20,125 bases of DNA from a virus. A program made the translations under genes and the position numbers. Location of the stretch: IMG/VR virus record IMGVR_UViG_3300017964_000113, positions 1-20,125 of that record; one strand, 5' to 3'. Below the pieces are notes generated by a model. The model was not told where the DNA came from and ran no database searches. It worked only from the letters and a program-made list of their open reading frames with translations. This document shows positions 889 to 19,975 of the stretch, one piece after another; position 1 is the stretch's first letter, and each line of letters begins with the position of its first letter.

Positions 889-3800
889 ATGGGTATACAA
901 ATAATCAATATAGGTGTCGAAGGAAATGACGGGACTGGTGATAGTATTAGAGAATCGTTTAGAAAAACAAATGAAAATTTTAATGAATTATTTGGATTAT
1001 TAGGTGACGAAGGAAACATAATTGAATGGACGAGATTAGGAGGTACTCCAGACGAATATGAATCTAATAAGGTACTATTTAGTGGCAATATAGATATTTC
1101 GGGAGGTACTCTTCCTACATTAAGTTGGGCAGGTTTTGTAAGTGACAACTATGTTAATTCTAACGATAATGATTCTATTTTAGTTTCATATGCACCTGGC
1201 GCGATAATATTAAGAGCAACATTTAATGAATTATCTCAAGACCCATCTCCTACATTAAGTGCTGGTTTAAATGCAGCTGGATCTGGAATAGCAGGTGTTG
1301 TAATAGACGCTGACGCTGTAGGACAATTTAATGCTGCACACGGCACATCATATACTGAAGATGACTTTGTAATGACAAGAAGGTATGCTGACGACCGTTA
1401 TATATCATCGGCACTTCCACAAGAAGGTGCTGAACAACCAACTGGTGTTTTACATTATACCCTTGAAATAGAAAGATATATAGACGGTGGAGCGCAAATC
1501 CTTTATCATTACAATGCAGCCCAAGAGCTACAAGAAAATGCCGGCCACGGGATAGATTCCGCATTTAACGGTTACGGATTCACATATTATGCAGAAGATG
1601 TCAAAAATCCTAATCTTATAGTAGGGCAAACTTATTATATTAGAGTGGTTAGTGATACATTACTATGGTTTTATGACGACAAAGGCAATGCCCAAACAGC
1701 CGACGAAAATATAGCAGCCAATACCCGTATAGATTTAACTCCAACTGGTGAAATCCTAATTGCCGATACTGATATTCATACAATAACTGATGCTAATTAT
1801 GATTCAACTCTCTCAGGCAGATACCTCGGTAATGAATTAATTCCGAGGAAAAATTTAATTTTAAGAGAAGGAGATAAACTTGTAGGACCGTTAGATTTAC
1901 ATGATCACCCAGGCGACCTAGCTGGAGTTAAAAGTACAGCAGTAGATGACTACCGATCAGTTACTAAATTCTATGTAGACAATACAGCAAATCATACTTC
2001 TCCTGAAAATATCTATGTAAGCACAGGCGGTGATGATTTAATGACAAATGTTCCTGTAGGCTTAGAAGGAACGTGCGAAAAATATGCATATGCAAGTATA
2101 AATGCAGCAGCTCGTAGAGCAGAAGAACTGATGCTTGCAGCACCTGTTACTCCAGGTCCTTACATGCAAACTTTAACTCATTCAAATTACACTGCTGCAG
2201 CTACAGTTTTAAAAGCAGAAATTGATATACCATCTGATAACACTGCACGGAAACTGATTGATGAAAATATTTTGTTTTTACAAAAAGAAAGTCTTGCGTT
2301 TCTAAAAAGCACTTATCCTAATTTTACATTTGAAGATAATGATATAGAACTTTACGTAGAAGAAATTTTATCAGCTATTTCTATGGATATAAATCGTGGA
2401 TCTCAATCTAATTTCCTAACAAAACGAGCAGCAAATAATTTTTATAGTTCAGTTTCTAGGCGCATTTTAATTAGGAAGCATCAAGCTGAATTTATTGGTT
2501 TGGTAAATTTTTTAAATAGATATCTTTTAGGTTCCGTTGGTCTCACAACAGGAGGTATCCTTAATAATTTAAGGTACCAAACAGTTAGCATAGCATCTAT
2601 TCAAACAAAAATAATTGATGAAAATAATTTAGAAGTAGCAGTAAGTCCGGCAATCTTAACTACCGATAGTTTACATGGCTGGCCTACTGGCGCAACTATA
2701 TTAATAGAGAATGCCATTGGTTTAGAATATCAAAATATTTCACAAATAAATGATAAAATCTTTTATATAAAACGTCTTACAGAAGACAATGAAATAAGCT
2801 TTGAATTATATTTAGATCAACAATTAAATACACCTTTTAATGGTTTCACTTATACAGATTATGCTGGAGGTGGTACAGTAAGTAGATTGTGGCAAACCGA
2901 TGAAATGCAAACTCTAGGAATTTTGGAATACCAAATTGCAGAAATTACGTCTACATTTCCTGCTCGTATTACTACAAATGTTGCACACAATTTAAATAAT
3001 TTTAGCAACGCTAACTCAGCAACTATTAGAATAACTGGTGTTCAAGAAACAAGTGATAACGGTCCGATCCTCGCCGACTTATTCAACGAAAAAGACTTTA
3101 CTATATTAACTACAGAAGATCCAAATCAATTTTACCTATTCAACGATAGCGGATTTAAATTAGCAAGAGTTAGTTCTATAAGTTTTAGTTCTAACCAAAT
3201 TGTAATTACAACTACCTCAGCCCATGACTTCATTGACGGTGAAGCTATTGTAATAACTGAAATTAATAGTCCTTCTGATTTAAACCAAGTACAATATTTC
3301 GCAAAGATAGATGAATCTAATTCGTTATATATAAAACTAGTAGACGATCTTGGTAATGATATCGTACCAGACCCTAGCTGGTCTTATACTGGTGGAGGTA
3401 TTATAACATCATCTGCAAATGCTATTAATTCTACAAATTTTATTCATGTTGCAGATACCGGAATATTTACAAAAGAAGAAGCTGGGGCAAATGAATCTTC
3501 ACTTATTGGAGTAAATAGTAGATTTGATACTTTTAGAAATATTATTAATCAAGGTTTAGGAGTATCAACTGATACAGTATATGGAAGCACCTATAAATTA
3601 GTACTCAATAATGGTACAGGTTATTACACTGATCAAACACAAGATACCAATGCAGATGCATTACCTGGGAAAGTTTTACGAGGTAAAACATCAAATGCTC
3701 TAGGAAAAATAGTTAATTTTTATAACAATGTTCAAAATGAAGCAACAGTTGCTGAATCAAATCCTACAGTTTTCCAAGTTTTCTTATTAACTCCAAAAGA

Positions 3801-6800
3801 CTTTACGATTGGTGAAGAATTAGAATTTGGTAATTATATCAATGATAAAGAAATTACAATTAAAATAGAAACTGGAATTTACGAAGAAGATTATCCAATA
3901 CGAATAATGAATAATGTATCAATTGTAGGCGATGAATTTAGACGTGTCATTATTAAACCAAAAACACAAGGAACAAGCAATATTGCTAGAATAAGCCAAA
4001 GCAAGTGGGCAACTAATTATTTCTACAGAGATAATGAATTTGACGGATTGCAAATAGCAAGAGGAGGAACAGATTTTATAAATCAAGTAGGTGAGTTGCA
4101 AGGAAAATTCGGATACCACTACTTGCAAGACCCAAGTAAACCCACCAATATTGGTGAAGATGGAGTCACAACTAATTATGGGGGTTACCAAACAAGTGCA
4201 GATATTATTGCTGCGAATAAAGATTACTTAATTGAAGAAACTAATTATTATTTAAAATCAGTTACGCCAGAAGTACCATATAACACAGAAAAATCAAGAA
4301 GAGATACAGGATATGTAATAGATGCTTTGATAGCGGATTTAAAAATAGGTGGAAATAGTAATATTTTAGAAATGCAAGGATCATTTTACGGAGGACAATT
4401 CACCGGACCAGAACAAGAATCTGCTTGTTCTGCCGCATTAAGTAACATAAAAACACTTGCTACCTCATTAGTTCAAAATATTGCTCCTACATATTTCATT
4501 CAACAACAAGCATTTACAGCAGAAACAGGAACAGAATATTTTCCAAGTAGTGGAGACCTAAGAATAATAATTGGGTCAGGTCACGGTTTAAATGTCGGAG
4601 ATTATATAGAAATTTTACCTGAATCGTTAGTTTTTACCTGTGAAGCAGATAACCATACTACTCTTCATTATTATCCTGACCCTGCATCACCTGCATACAA
4701 AACCAAAATACAAATTCAAAGTTTATATGATACTACAGGAATAGTGGTAAACGTTGGAACACACAATTCAATTACTGAACCTAGTATTGTTCCTCATATT
4801 TTTAGAAAAACAGAAAGCCAAGATAATAGTATTACAGTCAAAAGATACGAAGCTGGATCTACAGTTGTAACAGACATAGAACCAGTTGATTTACGTATCA
4901 CGGGCGAACCTGACGAACTTACTGCATATGCACTCAATGATCTTGAAACTAGAAGCTCTGTTATGTCTATTATAGATGTTTTAATTAATCAATTAGTTTT
5001 CGTGTTTGACCCTGACTATAATCCTCCACTAAGAAACGATGAAATGGATGTATTTTTGCTAGGTGACACAACTATTTTAAGGCAAATAACATGTAGAGGT
5101 CATGGCGGTTTTATGGCGGTTTTAGATCCTGACAATCAAATACTTACTAAATCACCATATATTCAAACAGCGAGTAGTTTTAGCAAGAGTATTAATAAAC
5201 AAACTTTCGCAGGAGGCATGTTTGTTGATGCCTATGTAGGAAATTTACCTACAAAAATTACCGGTGTTGTTGCAGAAAGCAGTAAAACTATTATACTAGA
5301 CGATGGAAGCAGCACACAAGGTTACTTCACTTTAGGTATTCAAAGTGATGTTGGAGAAGGTCTACGAATTAGAGAACCGCAATTACCCTGTCCATTTTAT
5401 TTAGACGGTAGACGTTTCCAAATTAACGCAATTTCTGATTACAATAGTTTTGCTGGCACAGCTAAAATTTATTTAGATGCAAGCTCTAATAATAAACAAG
5501 GATTTATACCTGAGCAAATACCTAACCTGATTTATCCAATGGGCATATTCCTACAAACTGCTGGTAATAGAAGTATATTAGGCAATGATTACACCCAAGT
5601 AAATGATCTTGGTTATGGACTGCTATGTACAAATGGTGCATTTTCAGAAATGGTTTCAATGTTTACCTATTATTGTCATGTTGCATACTATGCAGCTAAT
5701 GGTGCTGAGATTAGGTCACTAAACGGATCTAATGGATATGGAAATTTTGGTTTAGTGGCAGAAGGAGCTGATCCTAACGAGATTCCAGATCAAGTGGTTT
5801 TGACATATGATATGGTACAGCCATTAAAAGCGTTTACTACCTCACAAAATCCAAATGAATATGAACAAACAAGTATAACAGTGTATGACGCTAAAAGAAT
5901 GCCTACTGCTGGTAGTGAATTTACTGTTGATCATGGTACAGTCACAATTGACGGTACTCAAGTAGATGTTGGTATACTTAATTACGTTGTTTCAAGTGTT
6001 ACATCATTAAGTGATAGAGATGCATCTTCAACTCGATTAATTAGAATGGCAACTTCGCAAACATTCGCTGAAGGTACAAAATTACAGTTTAGTGGCGAAA
6101 TTACAGGCGTAGTTGCTGCAAACCATTACAATGACAATTGGTTATCTTTAAGATCATTAAGTAGCGAAATATCAACCCTAACAACTATTGTAGGTATATT
6201 GGATGCATCTAACGTACAAATAACAACTTATGATCCTGCAATTATAATTACAGAAGTAGACACAGATGGCATTGTAGGTATTGTAAACCAAGATGATGTT
6301 GTAAATGGAGGCGTAACTGCACTAGATACTAGTAATCAAGGTAGTATACTTGTTGCAGCTGGATTCCTGGGACTACAAAATGTTTTTACTAAAACAACAG
6401 GCGATGGTTATGGACTATGCGTAGATATAGGACCAGATCAATCTATTACTATTGTTACTACAGGACAAAATTATGCAGCTAATGATGCGATTACAATTAG
6501 TTTCAATGATGGATCCAATGATCTTGAAATTACTGGCATTACAGTTGATACTGTACACGGAACATCTAAAGGTATTTACAGTAACCTAGTTTATAGATTA
6601 GACATTATTGCAGATAATACAACACCAATTGATAAATTTCCTGTCCTACAAGGAGATATACCGCATGATACATATTTAGAATATAGAGATTACACTATCT
6701 TCCAATTTTCAAATGTAAATGATAGAGCTGGTTTGGTAACTAGACCTAGCACTGCGATCAATTTAGATGAAAGCGACGACGTTACGTATAGAAGTTTGGC

Positions 6801-9800
6801 TTTCCAAAGTGTGGATAGTATATCTAGAGATATCTTAACCAACGATGGAACACTTGCTACTGTTGAAGTTGGGTATGACTATATTACTTTACAAACGCTT
6901 ACTTTTAATTCTACAAATCCTACAAATGATTTTATAGGTGATAACTGCGGAAATACTATAGGCGACACTCGAATAGCAATTTTACCATTAGATGACGCTC
7001 AAGGTTTATATGGTCAAATTGCAAGAATAACAAAAGACACTACAAATTATTCTGCACATGGTATTATAACCGATACTACAGATCCTAATTACGTAGGAGG
7101 AATGATATTTACTCATCAAGGAAAAACCCATAGAATTATTAATTATAAAGAATTAGTTAAATTAACTCTGAGTACGCAGATTTCAGCAGTTCAAGATGAT
7201 ATGCTTACCCAAGCAAGCACAGGAGCTAGTGCCAAAATTGCAGCAAATTATTCATCCGAAAATATAATTTTTGTATATGATATACAAAATGAATTGACAA
7301 CAGGCACTGCGACAATAGACGGTGCCACAGTTACTATATCAAATATTAATATAGGTAGGAACGCCGCGTTTATAGATATTGCACCACTAGATTCAATAGC
7401 AAACGGAATAGGATGGACAGCGACCGATTTAACAGCTTCTAGCACTTATGGAATATCTGCCCCAATGCTTTCCGACGAAGCAAGAAAATTTTATGTAGGA
7501 TTACCTGCATTATCATCAGCAGAAATCACTGTTAGGATATCATTGTGTAGAGCAACTGGTCATGATTTTACACAAATAGGTACCGGAGGATTTAACACCT
7601 CAAACTATCCTAACGTAATATTAGGACCGCCCACAGAAAGTTTAGCAGATTCATACACATCAGCGCCTAATGCATTTAAAGCCCAAGTATGGGAAAGAAG
7701 AAAAGGAAGAGTATTTTGGGTAAGTACAGATCAATATGGATTTTTTAGAGTAGGAAAATTCTTCGAAGTTGATCAAGGAACTGGTGACATTACCTTCTCA
7801 GGACAAGTCGGTTTATCAAGTGCAAACTCTTTAGGATTTAAAAAAGGAGTAGTAATCGATGAGTTTTCGGCAGACGATACATTTGCAGATCTTTCTGGTA
7901 AAGCTGTACCAGTAGAAAAAGCTATCGCAGGATATATCAATCGCGTCCTAGGATATAATCCTCAGGCTTTAACTCAAATAACAGGGGCACAACGTATTGG
8001 TACAGGATTCCTTACCCTAAACGGTGTAACTCCATTGGAAGGTAACATAGATGCAAATCAATTTAGAATCACTAATGTTGGTCCTCCAACAGAACCAACT
8101 GACGCAATCACAAAAGCATATGTAGATGCTAATGTTGAAAGATTTAATTCTCTCGGAGTATTAAGAGATTTTTATGAAACACCTTTAGAAGGATCTGCAG
8201 GAGAACTCATAGTTGCTACAGGTAGATTTATAATGTATACAGAAATAGAATCAGGTGGTGGTGCATTTTCTGTAGGGCAGACTATAAAAGGAAATCAATC
8301 AGGAGCAACAGGTTTTATAGTCCACGTAGAAACTATTAACGATATACTGTTAAGTAACACAGGATCTGGTACACGTAAAATTATATATACTTTAACTAGT
8401 GCTACCAATTTTAATGCAGGTATAGATATAGTAAGCAATTGGACACCCGATGGTCAAACGCCAGAAGGAAGTTCTGCTGCAATGCTTACTAATAATATTA
8501 ATGAAGACCTAGGAGGACCGTATCAAGAGTATACCCATGCATCAGTAATATCTGATAGTGATGTGAAATGGTTAATTTCAAAACCTGCAGATGGACAAGA
8601 TGCGAATATTTCTAATACTAAAATAGATTTGACAATACAAAGCGAAGTTATTTTTGATAGCATGATTAATCCGGATGCTCGAATTAAACAAAGCAAACTA
8701 GATATGCAAAGTGCAACAGTTTATTCTGATACCTTCAGTAGCATAACACAGGCAGATTTAGGATTATCGGCATTTAATTCTAAAGAATTTTCAACCCTTG
8801 GAACAATCCGTTTAACAACTCCTATCACAGCGAATGAAGGTGACCCAATTACACAAGGAACGCTTGGAGCAACAGCGGAAGCAACAATTGCAAGAACAGT
8901 TACGAACAGTGATTTAATCACTATAAGATTAAATTCCGGCAATTTTATTGCAGGTACCAGCACAAATGAATTTCCTAACAACGTTGTCAAAGAAAATATT
9001 CTAGATTCTCCAGCTTCTGCTTCAGCTGTTGAAAATACAGGTTGGATAGAACTAAAAACTGCTACAAGTGATGCTGATGGTGTAACATTACCAAAACTGT
9101 CTTGGATGCAACAGTTTGAGGTAATAGGCAGAAAATCTGCTGTTGCAGGTAATGGGCATTCAACAGCAGAGCATGTAACATTCAAAGAAGTGATAAACTT
9201 AGGAGGAGGAGTTCACGACGATGATTTTGGAATATCTTACACAGCAGGACAAAATGATGTATTGTTAAGGAGTGCAGTTGGTACTTATGGTACAAAGAAA
9301 TTAGCATATCTTCCTACTCAAGACACCTTTGTTGTTAGAAATCCAACACCACCGCAGACTGGGGATCCGAGAGCAGGATCAATCCAAGTAAGTTCACTTA
9401 TTATTGGATCGAATGTCAATGCAGAAGTATTAGCTTTGTATGCTAATAATTCAAACCAAATAGAATTAAAATCACCTACTGGTAATAGGACAATCTTAAA
9501 AGCTGGTAGCAGTGATGCAGAAACTAGATTTACAGTAGAAATGCCTGATCAACTAAATGTAGGCGATGCAAGGTTCACGCACGGCACTGAGCGGCATTTA
9601 GTTGAGGTAAGCAGTGACATTCAATCTAACGCTAAAAACACTGCGCCAAATGCTTTAGAAGATTATACTAAGGGGTTTGTTGCTAGTAATTGGATCTACA
9701 CAAAAGGTATAGAAGCAATTGACGAAGCTAACATCAGAAATAGTACCAATACTGCTACAGTTGGAAATACTGGCGGGACTGGTATGGTATTTGGTGCTCA

Positions 9801-10887
9801 TACAGGTTTTAATGATAGTGCTTCGGATAATATCGTATTCTTTACAAACGGCGTAGCGGAGGCAAAATTAGACGGAACAGCTCTTTATGTAGATGAAGTT
9901 AGATCATTAACAGCAGATGGAAATTTTACTATCTATTACCCAAATGGGTACCCTGATGGACAGAACACTGGAAACGGAAAAGTAATAATTTATCCGGCTA
10001 CAGACTTACTAAAAAACGTAACTATAGGTACTGCAGCAACAAATGCAAGTTTAAGTGTAAATGGCAATTTTACTAGCACAGGAAAAAGCACATTTTCAAA
10101 AATATTTGACGAAAGTTTAAATGAAGAATTTCTAGTTGCAGGAAGATCAAAATTTGAAAATTCAGTAGAGATTACAGCAAGTACAACTATCGGCACAATA
10201 GATGTTGAGCAAGAACTCCATGTTTATGATAAAATAAAAATTTCAAAAAAGACTGAGGGTAATAATGCTAAATTATATACCGGTGACAATATTTTAGAAA
10301 TTAAGACAACAAACGATGAGTCAGATCCACAAGCAATTGCCTACGGAAGGATAGACTTATATAATGATGTAGTAGTAAAAAGGAACCTAACTGTTGATGG
10401 AAATATTAACCCAGATACTACTAATACAAGAATGATAGGTAGTGCAGATCTTAAATGGAATACTATTTATGCAACTACGTTTAATGGTACTGCATTAACT
10501 GCTCAATATGCCGACTTAGCTGAGAATTATTTAGCAGACAAAGAGTATGATGCCGGAACCGTGTTGATTTTTGGTGGTCAAAATGAAGTCACCGATACGG
10601 ATATAAAATGCAATAGACGTGTAGCAGGTGTAGTATCTTCTAATCCGGCTTATTTAATGAATGCTGACTGTACAGGAGAACATGTAACACCAATAGCATT
10701 ACAAGGGCGTGTACCATGTAAAGTCATCGGTATTGTAGAAAAAGGCGATTTATTAGTTTCTAGTGCAATGTCAGGCTATGCTATTGTTGATAACGATCCG
10801 CCAATAGGAACAGTCTTAGGTAAAGCAGTAGGAGAAAAAACCAACGACGGTAAGGGCGTTGTTGAAATTGTAGTAGGAAGAGTATAA
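889..10887 (+). CDS. Giant multidomain virion/tail structural protein (3332 aa)
   Basis: One uninterrupted frame starts at an ATG eight bases after AGGAG. Residues 5-33 form a short module (INIG...NDGTGD...R.SF.K.N.NF) shared with the gene at 14414. Residues about 590-830 hold three similar beta-rich segments around TT..H.. turns, like FCCH-type repeats. Around residue 1003, PIRIMNNVSIVGDEFRR resembles the entry to a right-handed beta-helix. Blocks near 1385 (NDEMDVFLLGD) and 1564 (NDYTQVNDLGYG) match segments I associate with large structural proteins of marine T4-like phages. Residues about 2263-2335 (QVWERRKGRVFW; EFSADDTF) are followed by a collar-like block near 2392-2413 (RITNVGPPTEPTDAITKAYV) typical of fibres. 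The last ~125 residues start at YADLAENYLAD (3207) and resemble the intramolecular-chaperone/Peptidase_G2-like end of phage fibres. It is likely a very long fibre or baseplate-periphery protein. The domain names are judged by eye. Confidence 0.9.
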   Translation: MGIQIINIGVEGNDGTGDSIRESFRKTNENFNELFGLLGDEGNIIEWTRLGGTPDEYESNKVLFSGNIDISGGTLPTLSWAGFVSDNYVNSNDNDSILVSYAPGAIILRATFNELSQDPSPTLSAGLNAAGSGIAGVVIDADAVGQFNAAHGTSYTEDDFVMTRRYADDRYISSALPQEGAEQPTGVLHYTLEIERYIDGGAQILYHYNAAQELQENAGHGIDSAFNGYGFTYYAEDVKNPNLIVGQTYYIRVVSDTLLWFYDDKGNAQTADENIAANTRIDLTPTGEILIADTDIHTITDANYDSTLSGRYLGNELIPRKNLILREGDKLVGPLDLHDHPGDLAGVKSTAVDDYRSVTKFYVDNTANHTSPENIYVSTGGDDLMTNVPVGLEGTCEKYAYASINAAARRAEELMLAAPVTPGPYMQTLTHSNYTAAATVLKAEIDIPSDNTARKLIDENILFLQKESLAFLKSTYPNFTFEDNDIELYVEEILSAISMDINRGSQSNFLTKRAANNFYSSVSRRILIRKHQAEFIGLVNFLNRYLLGSVGLTTGGILNNLRYQTVSIASIQTKIIDENNLEVAVSPAILTTDSLHGWPTGATILIENAIGLEYQNISQINDKIFYIKRLTEDNEISFELYLDQQLNTPFNGFTYTDYAGGGTVSRLWQTDEMQTLGILEYQIAEITSTFPARITTNVAHNLNNFSNANSATIRITGVQETSDNGPILADLFNEKDFTILTTEDPNQFYLFNDSGFKLARVSSISFSSNQIVITTTSAHDFIDGEAIVITEINSPSDLNQVQYFAKIDESNSLYIKLVDDLGNDIVPDPSWSYTGGGIITSSANAINSTNFIHVADTGIFTKEEAGANESSLIGVNSRFDTFRNIINQGLGVSTDTVYGSTYKLVLNNGTGYYTDQTQDTNADALPGKVLRGKTSNALGKIVNFYNNVQNEATVAESNPTVFQVFLLTPKDFTIGEELEFGNYINDKEITIKIETGIYEEDYPIRIMNNVSIVGDEFRRVIIKPKTQGTSNIARISQSKWATNYFYRDNEFDGLQIARGGTDFINQVGELQGKFGYHYLQDPSKPTNIGEDGVTTNYGGYQTSADIIAANKDYLIEETNYYLKSVTPEVPYNTEKSRRDTGYVIDALIADLKIGGNSNILEMQGSFYGGQFTGPEQESACSAALSNIKTLATSLVQNIAPTYFIQQQAFTAETGTEYFPSSGDLRIIIGSGHGLNVGDYIEILPESLVFTCEADNHTTLHYYPDPASPAYKTKIQIQSLYDTTGIVVNVGTHNSITEPSIVPHIFRKTESQDNSITVKRYEAGSTVVTDIEPVDLRITGEPDELTAYALNDLETRSSVMSIIDVLINQLVFVFDPDYNPPLRNDEMDVFLLGDTTILRQITCRGHGGFMAVLDPDNQILTKSPYIQTASSFSKSINKQTFAGGMFVDAYVGNLPTKITGVVAESSKTIILDDGSSTQGYFTLGIQSDVGEGLRIREPQLPCPFYLDGRRFQINAISDYNSFAGTAKIYLDASSNNKQGFIPEQIPNLIYPMGIFLQTAGNRSILGNDYTQVNDLGYGLLCTNGAFSEMVSMFTYYCHVAYYAANGAEIRSLNGSNGYGNFGLVAEGADPNEIPDQVVLTYDMVQPLKAFTTSQNPNEYEQTSITVYDAKRMPTAGSEFTVDHGTVTIDGTQVDVGILNYVVSSVTSLSDRDASSTRLIRMATSQTFAEGTKLQFSGEITGVVAANHYNDNWLSLRSLSSEISTLTTIVGILDASNVQITTYDPAIIITEVDTDGIVGIVNQDDVVNGGVTALDTSNQGSILVAAGFLGLQNVFTKTTGDGYGLCVDIGPDQSITIVTTGQNYAANDAITISFNDGSNDLEITGITVDTVHGTSKGIYSNLVYRLDIIADNTTPIDKFPVLQGDIPHDTYLEYRDYTIFQFSNVNDRAGLVTRPSTAINLDESDDVTYRSLAFQSVDSISRDILTNDGTLATVEVGYDYITLQTLTFNSTNPTNDFIGDNCGNTIGDTRIAILPLDDAQGLYGQIARITKDTTNYSAHGIITDTTDPNYVGGMIFTHQGKTHRIINYKELVKLTLSTQISAVQDDMLTQASTGASAKIAANYSSENIIFVYDIQNELTTGTATIDGATVTISNINIGRNAAFIDIAPLDSIANGIGWTATDLTASSTYGISAPMLSDEARKFYVGLPALSSAEITVRISLCRATGHDFTQIGTGGFNTSNYPNVILGPPTESLADSYTSAPNAFKAQVWERRKGRVFWVSTDQYGFFRVGKFFEVDQGTGDITFSGQVGLSSANSLGFKKGVVIDEFSADDTFADLSGKAVPVEKAIAGYINRVLGYNPQALTQITGAQRIGTGFLTLNGVTPLEGNIDANQFRITNVGPPTEPTDAITKAYVDANVERFNSLGVLRDFYETPLEGSAGELIVATGRFIMYTEIESGGGAFSVGQTIKGNQSGATGFIVHVETINDILLSNTGSGTRKIIYTLTSATNFNAGIDIVSNWTPDGQTPEGSSAAMLTNNINEDLGGPYQEYTHASVISDSDVKWLISKPADGQDANISNTKIDLTIQSEVIFDSMINPDARIKQSKLDMQSATVYSDTFSSITQADLGLSAFNSKEFSTLGTIRLTTPITANEGDPITQGTLGATAEATIARTVTNSDLITIRLNSGNFIAGTSTNEFPNNVVKENILDSPASASAVENTGWIELKTATSDADGVTLPKLSWMQQFEVIGRKSAVAGNGHSTAEHVTFKEVINLGGGVHDDDFGISYTAGQNDVLLRSAVGTYGTKKLAYLPTQDTFVVRNPTPPQTGDPRAGSIQVSSLIIGSNVNAEVLALYANNSNQIELKSPTGNRTILKAGSSDAETRFTVEMPDQLNVGDARFTHGTERHLVEVSSDIQSNAKNTAPNALEDYTKGFVASNWIYTKGIEAIDEANIRNSTNTATVGNTGGTGMVFGAHTGFNDSASDNIVFFTNGVAEAKLDGTALYVDEVRSLTADGNFTIYYPNGYPDGQNTGNGKVIIYPATDLLKNVTIGTAATNASLSVNGNFTSTGKSTFSKIFDESLNEEFLVAGRSKFENSVEITASTTIGTIDVEQELHVYDKIKISKKTEGNNAKLYTGDNILEIKTTNDESDPQAIAYGRIDLYNDVVVKRNLTVDGNINPDTTNTRMIGSADLKWNTIYATTFNGTALTAQYADLAENYLADKEYDAGTVLIFGGQNEVTDTDIKCNRRVAGVVSSNPAYLMNADCTGEHVTPIALQGRVPCKVIGIVEKGDLLVSSAMSGYAIVDNDPPIGTVLGKAVGEKTNDGKGVVEIVVGRV

Positions 10888-10930: not shown

Positions 10931-12619
10931 ATGGCTAACAGATTTCCATTAATTATAGACGAAAATGACAATAAAATCAAAGAAATTCCAGAGAATGATA
11001 ATTTGTCATTACAAAACAATAATATCATTGGAGTGGTTAACATTACATCAGAAGGCACCATTACTGCTGAAAGTTTATATATCAACTCAGAAACTGTCAA
11101 CATAAATGGAAAAAATTTTAGTAATGTAGCATTCACAGGAAAATACATAGATCTCGTAGAACGCCCTTTACTTTTTACCGGTAGTTACAATGATTTAACA
11201 GATAAACCTACACTGTTTACTGGTAGTTACAATGATTTAACAGATAAACCTGCAAATTTAAGTCAATTCAATAATGATGTTGGATTTTTAACGTTATCTG
11301 AATCACCAACACTTTCTTTAATTGGTACAACTCTTCGTATTTCAAATGGCAACAGTGTTGATTTATCTGGATTAGGAAGTAGTGGTGATGGTATAGGAGC
11401 AGTCAATGGTATTGTAAAAGCAGACGGTGCAGGTAATATATCAGCAGCCGTGGCAGGAACAGATTACAGTACATTCGACGGTGATTATAATAGTTTGACG
11501 AATAAACCAACTATACCAAATGCATTAACAGATTTAGGCATTATCGACGGAACAAATGGTCAAGTATTAACAACAGACGGTGCAGGTAATTTTAGTTTCA
11601 CAACAGTTACTAGCGGTACAAGTTATACTGACAGTGATGTAGATACACATCTTAACACAAGTACAGCAGGTGTCAATGAAGTATTAAGTTGGACTGGTAC
11701 AGATTATGACTGGATAGCACAAACTGGCAGTAGCGGTGTAAGTACATTTGGTATTGCTGGTAATACAGGTACACATACGTTTGATACATCAACAGAAACA
11801 TTAACATTCCTTGGCACAACAGGACAAATTAATGCAAGCATAGCCGCAAATAATGTTACGCTAGAACTAGATCCGAACATCAACAGTATTACAAGTATCG
11901 CGTTCGAAGGTACTACAGACGACAATTTTGAAACAACTATTAGTGCAATAGATCCAACTGCTGATCGTACAATACAATTCCCAGATGCTAGCGGTACAGT
12001 AGCACTTACTAGTGATCTTGGAAGTAGTACAGATACACTTAGTGATGTAACTGCACGTGGTGCTGTTACTAGCGATGCTGTTACAATTAACAATACACTC
12101 ACCGTAACAAGTTTAGATAGTACAGGACTTGGATTTGCAACATTACAAAGTGCAAGTGATATTAGTTTAAATGCTGTTGGTGATATCAATGCAAATAGTA
12201 GTAAAATTACAAACGTAGTAGATCCAATTGATTTACAGGATGCGGCTACTAAGAATTATGTAGATACTGCAATTAGTAACAATCTGCTAAGTTTTAATAT
12301 TACTGCACCAGATAGCAGTAGATACAGCTATACTGGTAGTGGATTTATTGCTGCAACTGATAACCCTGTACTATACTTATATCGTGGATTTACATATCTT
12401 TTTATTATCAATTCACCAGGTCATCCGTTCTACTTTACCACTGACAGCGGTGATAATTTTGCTAGCGGAACATACTTTGGCGAGTATACTGATGGTGTAA
12501 CTGGTTCAAGAACTGATAATGGTACGATTACATTTATGGTACCAATGAATGCTCCAGCAGACCTTTATTATTACTGTGGAAATCATTCTGCAATGAATGG
12601 TTCAATCAGGTGTAGGTAA
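10931..12619 (+). CDS. Tail fibre protein with tandem repeats and C-terminal cupredoxin-like domain
   Basis: This 562-residue protein begins MANRFPLIIDENDNKIKEIP, an N-terminus I associate with marine T4-like fibres. Residues 67-108 are three tandem 14-residue units (FTG.Y.DL...P), with a fourth diverged copy near 177-188 (FDGDYNSLTNKP). The middle is Ser/Thr/Gly/Asp-rich beta-fibre sequence with blocks such as DRTIQFPDASGTVALTSD and a collar-like ITNVVDPIDLQDAATKNYV. The last ~110 residues look like a small cupredoxin: His498 in GHPF, then Cys549, His552 and Met555 in YYYCGNHSAM, spaced as possible type-1 copper ligands after a beta-sandwich-like stretch. It probably forms a trimeric host-recognition fibre with this domain at its tip; metal binding is inferred. 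It ends 15 bases before the protease gene. The first ATG is supported by AGGAT upstream. Confidence 0.87.
   Translation: MANRFPLIIDENDNKIKEIPENDNLSLQNNNIIGVVNITSEGTITAESLYINSETVNINGKNFSNVAFTGKYIDLVERPLLFTGSYNDLTDKPTLFTGSYNDLTDKPANLSQFNNDVGFLTLSESPTLSLIGTTLRISNGNSVDLSGLGSSGDGIGAVNGIVKADGAGNISAAVAGTDYSTFDGDYNSLTNKPTIPNALTDLGIIDGTNGQVLTTDGAGNFSFTTVTSGTSYTDSDVDTHLNTSTAGVNEVLSWTGTDYDWIAQTGSSGVSTFGIAGNTGTHTFDTSTETLTFLGTTGQINASIAANNVTLELDPNINSITSIAFEGTTDDNFETTISAIDPTADRTIQFPDASGTVALTSDLGSSTDTLSDVTARGAVTSDAVTINNTLTVTSLDSTGLGFATLQSASDISLNAVGDINANSSKITNVVDPIDLQDAATKNYVDTAISNNLLSFNITAPDSSRYSYTGSGFIAATDNPVLYLYRGFTYLFIINSPGHPFYFTTDSGDNFASGTYFGEYTDGVTGSRTDNGTITFMVPMNAPADLYYYCGNHSAMNGSIRCR
11129..11254 (+). 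repeat. Three tandem 42-bp in-frame repeats in the fibre gene
   Basis: Three consecutive 42-base units start at 11129, 11171 and 11213. Each encodes 14 residues of the form (A/L)FTG.Y.DL...P... The second and third are almost identical in DNA, differing only at a few bases, while the first is diverged. The near-identity of two copies suggests recent slippage or duplication. Such units typically extend the fibre shaft. Confidence 0.85.
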
Positions 12620-18509: not shown

Positions 18510-19037
18510 ATGGATTTTTCATTAAACAACATTCCAGTACTAAATGATGATGATTTAATTCATTACTTGTATACTGATCCTGCAATAAATTTAAATAATT
18601 TGTTTTGCAAACAATCTACTAACCTCTTAAAATTTAACAAGAATTGTGATAAGTTTGGTTTCTCTCCTTTAAACATTACTACTTTTGAGTGTGTAAATAA
18701 AATTAAAGACGAGGAGTTTTATAAAAACATATTAATTCCGGATGAGTATAAAAATATAAATATTGAAAAAGTTATATTAGATAAATGCACTACGATTGAT
18801 GAATTAGAAAGAGCAAAAAAAGAAATTAAATTATTTAAAGAATATAACTTATTAAACATATTAAAATTTATTATTTTTTTAGTAGATAAAATGCGAGAAA
18901 ATAAGATTGTATGGGGTGTCGGAAGAGGATCTAGTGTAGCAAGTTTCGTGTTATATCTTATAGGTTTAAATAAAATTAATCCTATGCGTTATCATATAGA
19001 GTATACAGAATTTTTTAGAAAGGAAAACAATGAATAA
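18510..19037 (+). CDS. Stand-alone fragment of bacterial DNA polymerase III alpha (DnaE-like)
   Basis: A 175-residue protein whose residues about 111-170 align by eye with the start of the DnaE palm. An amphipathic helix (LLNILKFIIFLVDKMRENKI) leads into WGVGRGSSVASFVLYLIGL and then INPMRYHIEYTEFFR. This mirrors the DnaE pattern GPGRGSGAGSLVAYALxI...DPL.FDLLFERFL, where the GRGS loop contacts the incoming nucleotide. In DnaE the catalytic aspartates (PDFDxDF) follow within about ten residues; here the protein stops at KENNE before them. No PHP domain precedes it. It cannot therefore be a polymerase by itself. T4-like phages replicate with a family B enzyme, so a nucleotide-binding, regulatory or unrelated structural role is more likely. 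The start has no strong ribosome site. Its end overlaps the next gene by 8 bases. Confidence 0.72.
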   Translation: MDFSLNNIPVLNDDDLIHYLYTDPAINLNNLFCKQSTNLLKFNKNCDKFGFSPLNITTFECVNKIKDEEFYKNILIPDEYKNINIEKVILDKCTTIDELERAKKEIKLFKEYNLLNILKFIIFLVDKMRENKIVWGVGRGSSVASFVLYLIGLNKINPMRYHIEYTEFFRKENNE

Positions 19038-19630: not shown

Positions 19631-19975
19631 ATGTACAAATCAATTAAAACAAGTTTAATGCCAATACGAGATAAAGTAATAGTTACAGACATGCATTTTG
19701 GAGAACAACGTACAGCTAGCGGAATAATAATCCGCGACGATGACGGGACAGCACATGGAGTTCATCCCAGATGGGGTCGTGTTTGGGCTAAAGGACATGA
19801 GAATGAAGAAGAATTTAAAGTAGGAGATTGGATTTTGATATCGCACGGTAGATGGACTCATGGAATAAAATTAGAACTAGACGATAAAGAAATAATTATT
19901 AGAATGGTTGATAATGATGATATCTTAGCATATAGTGAAACACGCCCAACTGATGTAATAATAGGAACAGAATGA
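19631..19975 (+). CDS. groES: GroES-like co-chaperonin (Cpn10; analogue of T4 gp31)
   Basis: The 114-residue sequence follows the GroES layout: an N-terminal strand (LMPIRDKVIV, 9-18), a region matching the mobile loop with the hydrophobic GIII tripeptide (31-34) that docks on GroEL, a segment GRVWAKG (49-55) like GRVLAVG, KVGDWILIS (63-71), and a C-terminal MVDNDDILAYSE (92-103) like the GroES end DILAIVE. It probably caps the host GroEL and, by analogy with T4 gp31, helps fold the major capsid protein. The roof loop is expanded and His/Trp-rich (AHGVHPRWGR), as expected if the folding cage is adapted for large phage substrates. A strong AAGGA site precedes the ATG. Its stop overlaps the next start as ATGA. 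Confidence 0.9.
   Translation: MYKSIKTSLMPIRDKVIVTDMHFGEQRTASGIIIRDDDGTAHGVHPRWGRVWAKGHENEEEFKVGDWILISHGRWTHGIKLELDDKEIIIRMVDNDDILAYSETRPTDVIIGTE

Follow-up and report, generated by a model that had tools for sequence, protein, structure and literature searches.

The fibre gene and its neighbourhood

The window analysed here is a viral contig of 20,125 bases, and the fibre gene that it contains (Table 1) encodes a protein with a stalk, by which we mean the part N-terminal of its last domain, and a C-terminal cupredoxin domain. Residues 66-560 of this protein match the PHROG 677 profile, "baseplate wedge tail fiber protein connector" (E 1.4e-28), which places it among the gp9-type proteins, and the stalk resembles fibre segments of Synechococcus, Lentibacter, Roseobacter and Pelagibacter phages. 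The neighbours of the gene are consistent with a T4-like marine phage, a fit that is based on the 3332-residue ORF, the S8 peptidase, the gp9/10-like N-terminus and the GroES-like gene. No second copy of the cupredoxin domain was found within the window.

The S8 peptidase gene lies directly after the fibre gene, and peptidases of this kind recur beside the cupredoxin domain, or fused to it, in several cyanophages. The peptidase adjoins the domain gene in S-SCSM2R and forms one ORF with the domain in S-BM3, and the BFVD matches from ACG-2014e and ACG-2014h bear the name Peptidase S8/S53.

Table 1. Genes, predicted domain and candidate copper ligands in the 20,125-base window
Feature	Position	Strand	Basis or remark
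Fe-S cluster biosynthesis (IscA/ErpA-like) phage gene	492-866		PF01521, E 3.8e-17
3332-residue ORF	889-10887		No Pfam match; patches like marine phage tail-fibre proteins
Tail-fibre protein, 562 aa, cupredoxin domain at C-terminus	10931..12619	+	Complete ORF
Cupredoxin domain (type-1 copper, predicted), residues 452-562	12284..12616	+	AF2 model, Foldseek, VIA
His498, N-terminal ligand (predicted)	12422..12424	+	G-H-P-F motif, before model strand 49-52; 100% His in ligand-bearing copies
Cys549, thiolate ligand (predicted)	12575..12577	+	Y-Y-x-C-x2-H-x2-M; aligns with type-1 Cys of nitrite reductase, plastocyanin and amicyanin
His552, second His ligand (predicted)	12584..12586	+	Invariant in ligand-bearing copies; in register with PDB copper proteins
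Met555, axial ligand (predicted)	12593..12595	+	Invariant in ligand-bearing copies
S8 (subtilisin) peptidase, 515 aa	12635..14182	+	PF00082, E 1e-31
175-residue ORF resembling part of the DNA polymerase III alpha NTPase domain	18510-19037		PF07733, E 1.7e-11; much shorter than a complete polymerase
GroES-like co-chaperonin gene	19631-19975		PHROG 3188, E 4.8e-8; PHROG 931, head morphogenesis

Predicted fold, ligand residues and kinship to copper proteins

AlphaFold2, run on residues 452-562 with 78 sequences, returned a confident all-strand model of eight strands (pLDDT 97.1, pTM 0.89). Its top match in the PDB was rusticyanin, with a Foldseek value of 6.7e-5 and a VIA Z of 11.2 (2.1 A over 97 residues), and the other leading matches included AcoP, plastocyanin, small laccases and the type-1 domain of Hyphomicrobium nitrite reductase (HdNIR, Z 10.5); apart from one poor Foldseek row (CD45, rmsd 20.7), the leading matches were cupredoxins. 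Structure prediction had been proposed as a check in the first-pass annotation, which described the last part of the fibre as cupredoxin-like, and the model bears out a Greek-key beta barrel of the cupredoxin type. BFVD also yielded S8-peptidase proteins and giant-virus "beta-sandwich proteins" as matches, the latter from Pithovirus- and Marseillevirus-like viruses (A0A481Z6J5, A0A481YY19 and A0A481YWX9) and sharing the fold at Foldseek values of 4e-8 to 8e-8. Cupredoxin-like domains are also common as structural beta sandwiches.

The four candidate ligands are present exactly at the residues first named for them. His498 stands just before its model strand, and Cys549, His552 and Met555 come after strand 93-98 and before the last strand, an arrangement that we take to be the canonical one for type-1 ligands in plastocyanin, azurin and laccase. 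The spacing of the loop, C-x2-H-x2-M, is that of amicyanin. The protein has four His in all (240, 282, 498 and 552), and its second Cys, Cys561, lies outside the ligand loop, in or after the last strand and near the chain end.

Searched directly against the PDB with phmmer, the window domain gave chance matches only, and it reaches no Pfam or NCBIfam copper model at cut-off, including Copper-bind (PF00127) and amicyanin (TIGR02657). The family profile matched nitrite reductase (E 0.0048) and plastocyanin (E 0.0061) in the PDB with Cys, His and Met in register. Of 78 relatives, 29 reach the amicyanin model of NCBIfam (best 4.9e-8) and 23 reach Pfam Copper-bind (best 5e-5), and one divergent cellular relative matches amicyanin at 2.2e-4. 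Around the N-terminal ligand, the aligners pair a conserved Pro, instead of the His, with the P-H-N of amicyanin; when hhalign was run against nine bacterial multicopper oxidases, H498-P fell on the type-1 H-P and Cys549 on the type-1 Cys, in a weak match from a single comparison (E 0.015). No sensible register emerged when the profile was aligned with azurins. Judged from these searches, the cupredoxin subfamily of the window copy sits beyond the reach of current Pfam cut-offs and, since this copy matches no Pfam family for the domain, the present annotations of many fibre proteins leave it out.

A metal other than copper (Zn, Ni, Ag or Fe), or a redox-labile Cys in place of copper holding, seems to us quite improbable. 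His2Cys sites are able to bind Zn or Ni in vitro, and the presence of Cys561 close to the chain end could be read in the same direction, but a cupredoxin fold that has His/Cys/His together with an axial Met bears the signature of type-1 copper, and the best profile and fold matches of the relatives are copper proteins.

The site was initially described as type-1 or CuA-like. The first half of that description stands, on the complete type-1 ligand set and on a cupredoxin fold seen in the model, in the profile matches and in the concerted retention or loss of the ligands described below; the second half does not, because the loop holds one Cys. A CuA domain requires two Cys in this loop, where only Cys549 is found, and a plastocyanin (PetE) requires C-x2-H-x4-M and a free soluble carrier. 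That the domain is a CuA-like binuclear site, or a true plastocyanin taken from a host as an auxiliary metabolic gene, is hardly credible, although one phage copy is annotated as PetE and cyanophages do have genuine petE genes: with its single loop Cys and its C-x2-H-x2-M spacing, the window domain is fused to a fibre stalk, and genuine phage petE forms a separate gene cluster of 324-369 bases (T4-GC225; PMC3037559), distinct from that of gp9 (T4-GC398). Two further assignments were rejected on the absence of HxH motifs from the window protein, namely a multicopper oxidase, which has HxH pairs in its trinuclear type 2/3 site, and an iron-binding phage fibre of the T4 gp37 type.

Spread of the domain and joint retention or loss of its ligands

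A tblastn search found the domain in 343 phage records, nearly all of them from Synechococcus or Prochlorococcus phages, with all identities below 60% (best 46%). This spread, together with H, C, H and M columns that are 100% conserved in ligand-bearing copies, shows that the arrangement of the ligands is not a product of chance. Most phage copies are annotated as gp9, "baseplate wedge tail fiber connector", and T7-like carriers such as P-GSP1 and P-SCSP2 are among them. Isolates with the domain include S-SM1, Syn9 (gp102) and Bellamy (gp29). Our results do not agree with the initial view that such a domain is unusual on a phage fibre, since marine T4-like and T7-like phages commonly carry it; it is widespread on phage fibres yet seemingly unrecognised. 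Relatives are encoded in more than 500 viral-contig stretches and in 81 stretches of bacterial and archaeal genomes. Some of the cellular relatives resemble small secreted proteins and lipoproteins, and others look like phage fibres inside metagenome bins. One of the latter, in a Neomarinimicrobiota bin (L126:866-4252), is a fibre of 1129 residues with an N-terminus like that of the window fibre and the same cupredoxin domain at its end, and is probably a phage contig that carries a hint of its host.

The location at the tip of a tail fibre, as given in the first-pass annotation, holds in so far as the domain is C-terminal in the window protein, and the tip itself is deduced only from this C-terminal place. 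Of the 95 ligand-bearing ORFs with a visible end, 56 have the domain at their C-terminus and the others have it internally or at the N-terminus, and in the two nearest relatives of the window copy (L404 and L383) about 290 residues follow it. Ligand-free copies mostly lie within larger proteins, and one of seven is terminal. Tandem ligand-free cupredoxin-like repeats, some of the FCQM type, were seen in large baseplate-like phage proteins (L313, L316, L367, L369, L401 and similar). In the cryo-EM structure of P-SCSP1u, the distal fibre is unresolved (PMC10575957).

Searches that contain the ligands are unable to test ligand conservation, so the domain was sought with two ungapped DNA patterns that contain no ligand codon, each scan being limited to 120 stretches; the ligand counts of the motif-based scans, whose search pattern included Cys and His, were set aside as evidence. 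Among the matches listed in the first scan there were 103 distinct copies with all four ligands and four full-length copies that lacked His, Cys and His together (SSYM, FATM, FAVM and ESSH), the remaining copies being either cut by contig ends or members of a subfamily with a diverged C-terminal half. The second scan brought many ligand-free copies, often as repeats within large baseplate-like proteins. When the two scans were pooled and thinned to 80% identity, 105 of the 137 copies among the matches listed had all of His, Cys and His, 28 had none and four were mixed. The few intermediates comprised two FCQM copies, which keep the Cys and have lost both His, one MCHM and one HSS-, which has the first His only. 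Shuffling of the three ligand columns gave a mean of 71 mixed copies and a minimum of 59, against the four observed, a statistic that ignores the relatedness of the copies and that a tree corrects in part, on few columns. In that tree, which leaves out the ligand columns, eight changes are needed to account for the ligand-free state, at least four of them forced by well-supported (starred) branches, and the window copy falls inside a ligand-bearing clade (97*). By this reconstruction, the putative copper site was lost in several lineages.

The scaffold residues P, F, I, YY and G are the same in the ligand-bearing and ligand-free sets, and it is the ligands that are replaced in the latter. Met alone is not diagnostic, since half of the ligand-free copies also keep it. 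In the ligand-bearing copies, the H, C, H and M columns show no variation, unlike the positions beside them. A model built solely from ligand-free copies (pLDDT 83) still had cupredoxins as its best matches, with Z values that are middling taken alone (8.2 for rusticyanin and near 8 for laccases). Free variation of the ligands on a conserved fold had been named at the outset as the observation that would speak against a copper site, and what we found instead is that His, Cys and His are nearly always kept or lost jointly.

These data also bear on the possibility that the domain is metal-free, that is, an old cupredoxin fold used as a beta-sandwich spacer or receptor-binding module in which the ligand residues are kept for packing. 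The 28 copies without His/Cys/His among the matches listed, and the persistence of the cupredoxin fold in the model made from such copies, favour this view, and the ligand-free copies, which make up about a fifth of the ligand-blind sample, make it clear that the fold does not need copper to be of use. However, the other 105 copies show no change at H, C, H or M even though adjacent positions vary, and packing alone hardly explains the joint loss of residues that are 50 positions apart. The ligands act as one unit on a scaffold that survives either way, which is how a metal site behaves. We therefore regard a metal-free domain in the window protein as improbable, and copper binding as likely, given that the pattern is the one expected if a metal site serves a purpose in some copies and others can do without it. 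The reuse of the fold that was suggested at first is true of some copies and probably not of this one.

Proposed role of the site and comparison with known systems

The explanation that we favour, with a good degree of confidence, is that the fibre ends in a genuine cupredoxin domain in which His498, Cys549, His552 and Met555, with a short loop like that of amicyanin, bind one copper in a type-1 (blue) site, and that this domain would serve as a copper-clamped displayed head. The type-1 copper reading is a well-supported prediction and likely to be correct, so far as sequence and model can tell, and the fibres of marine phages probably carry copper. As to its role, we infer a copper-stabilised, surface-displayed head. 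Each fibre subunit would terminate in a compact Greek-key beta barrel, in which copper would clamp the loop between the last two strands onto the loop preceding the strand that follows His498. This would make the head rigid and stable; exposed on the virion, it would engage in surface contacts, probably with the host envelope. The domain would fold in the cytoplasm and take up copper later, once the virion has left that reducing compartment. As an alternative, the domain may conceivably transfer electrons to, or dock with, a protein of the host envelope.

The hosts of marine cyanophages have plastocyanin, and the copper could also be a handle on the host, if the fibre head mimicked or docked with redox or copper-handling proteins of the envelope and copper-loaded virions bound better, in a copper analogue of the "Ferrojan/Trojan horse" idea put forward for iron. 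The domain is often C-terminal in fibre or connector proteins, it retains all ligands across low identity and it is concentrated in marine cyanophages, and metal in fibres has a precedent in the HxH iron of T4 gp37, also proposed for R22Y (PMC11705849). Nonetheless, relatives also exist outside cyanobacterial systems, including many cellular secreted proteins, and the domain is sometimes internal or near the N-terminus, distant from the tip, so that we consider a host handle possible but rather unlikely. A broader form of the idea, in which marine virions would bear many redox-active blue-copper fibre sites and use them to dock onto, or to draw on, proteins of the host surface that handle copper or transfer electrons, and several lineages would drop the site as a block when the target changes, is speculative and, in our opinion, also unlikely.

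In the open-licence literature we found no description of a cupredoxin on a phage fibre or virion, the nearest idea found in print being that of HxH iron in fibres (PMC11705849). If the copper-clamped head is real, some of the commonest viruses of the sea are copper proteins on their outside, which would bear on attachment to picocyanobacteria and other hosts, on the copper held in viral particles and on the reading of phage "plastocyanin" genes. The ligand-bearing and ligand-free copies found in the same type of module offer a ready comparison for the purpose of the metal.

Among known copper proteins, rusticyanin and AcoP resemble the window domain in the placing of their ligands, with a single His ahead of a mid-domain strand and the Cys, His and Met in the last loop, but they are periplasmic electron carriers of acidophiles rather than virion proteins, with 18-19% identity, and the ligand loop of rusticyanin is longer (Cys138, His143 and Met148). 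Amicyanin (TIGR02657) has an identical C-x2-H-x2-M spacing (CTPHPFM in the amicyanin alignment), although it is a soluble partner of methylamine dehydrogenase. Iron is held by HxH motifs at the tip of T4 gp37, and the same has been proposed for the fibre of Alteromonas phage R22Y (PMC11705849); these fibres share with the predicted window site a metal on a phage fibre and a possible link to ocean trace metals (PMC11705849), but their metal is iron and it is bound by HxH pairs. The "PetE" of S-SCSM2R (L177:2800-3306, PQ898602.1) has the domain with all ligands and an adjoining S8 peptidase gene, as the window does, but it is named as a photosynthetic plastocyanin. The N-terminal half of this protein resembles a fibre, and its best relative, at 66% identity, is the gp9 of S-SSM7; for these reasons the PetE label is probably wrong. 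The gp9 proteins of T4-like cyanophages (T4-GC398, PHROG 677), whose annotations mention neither copper nor cupredoxin, have the same domain with all four ligands in the same virion module and are up to 46% identical to the window copy, from which they differ in the stalk.
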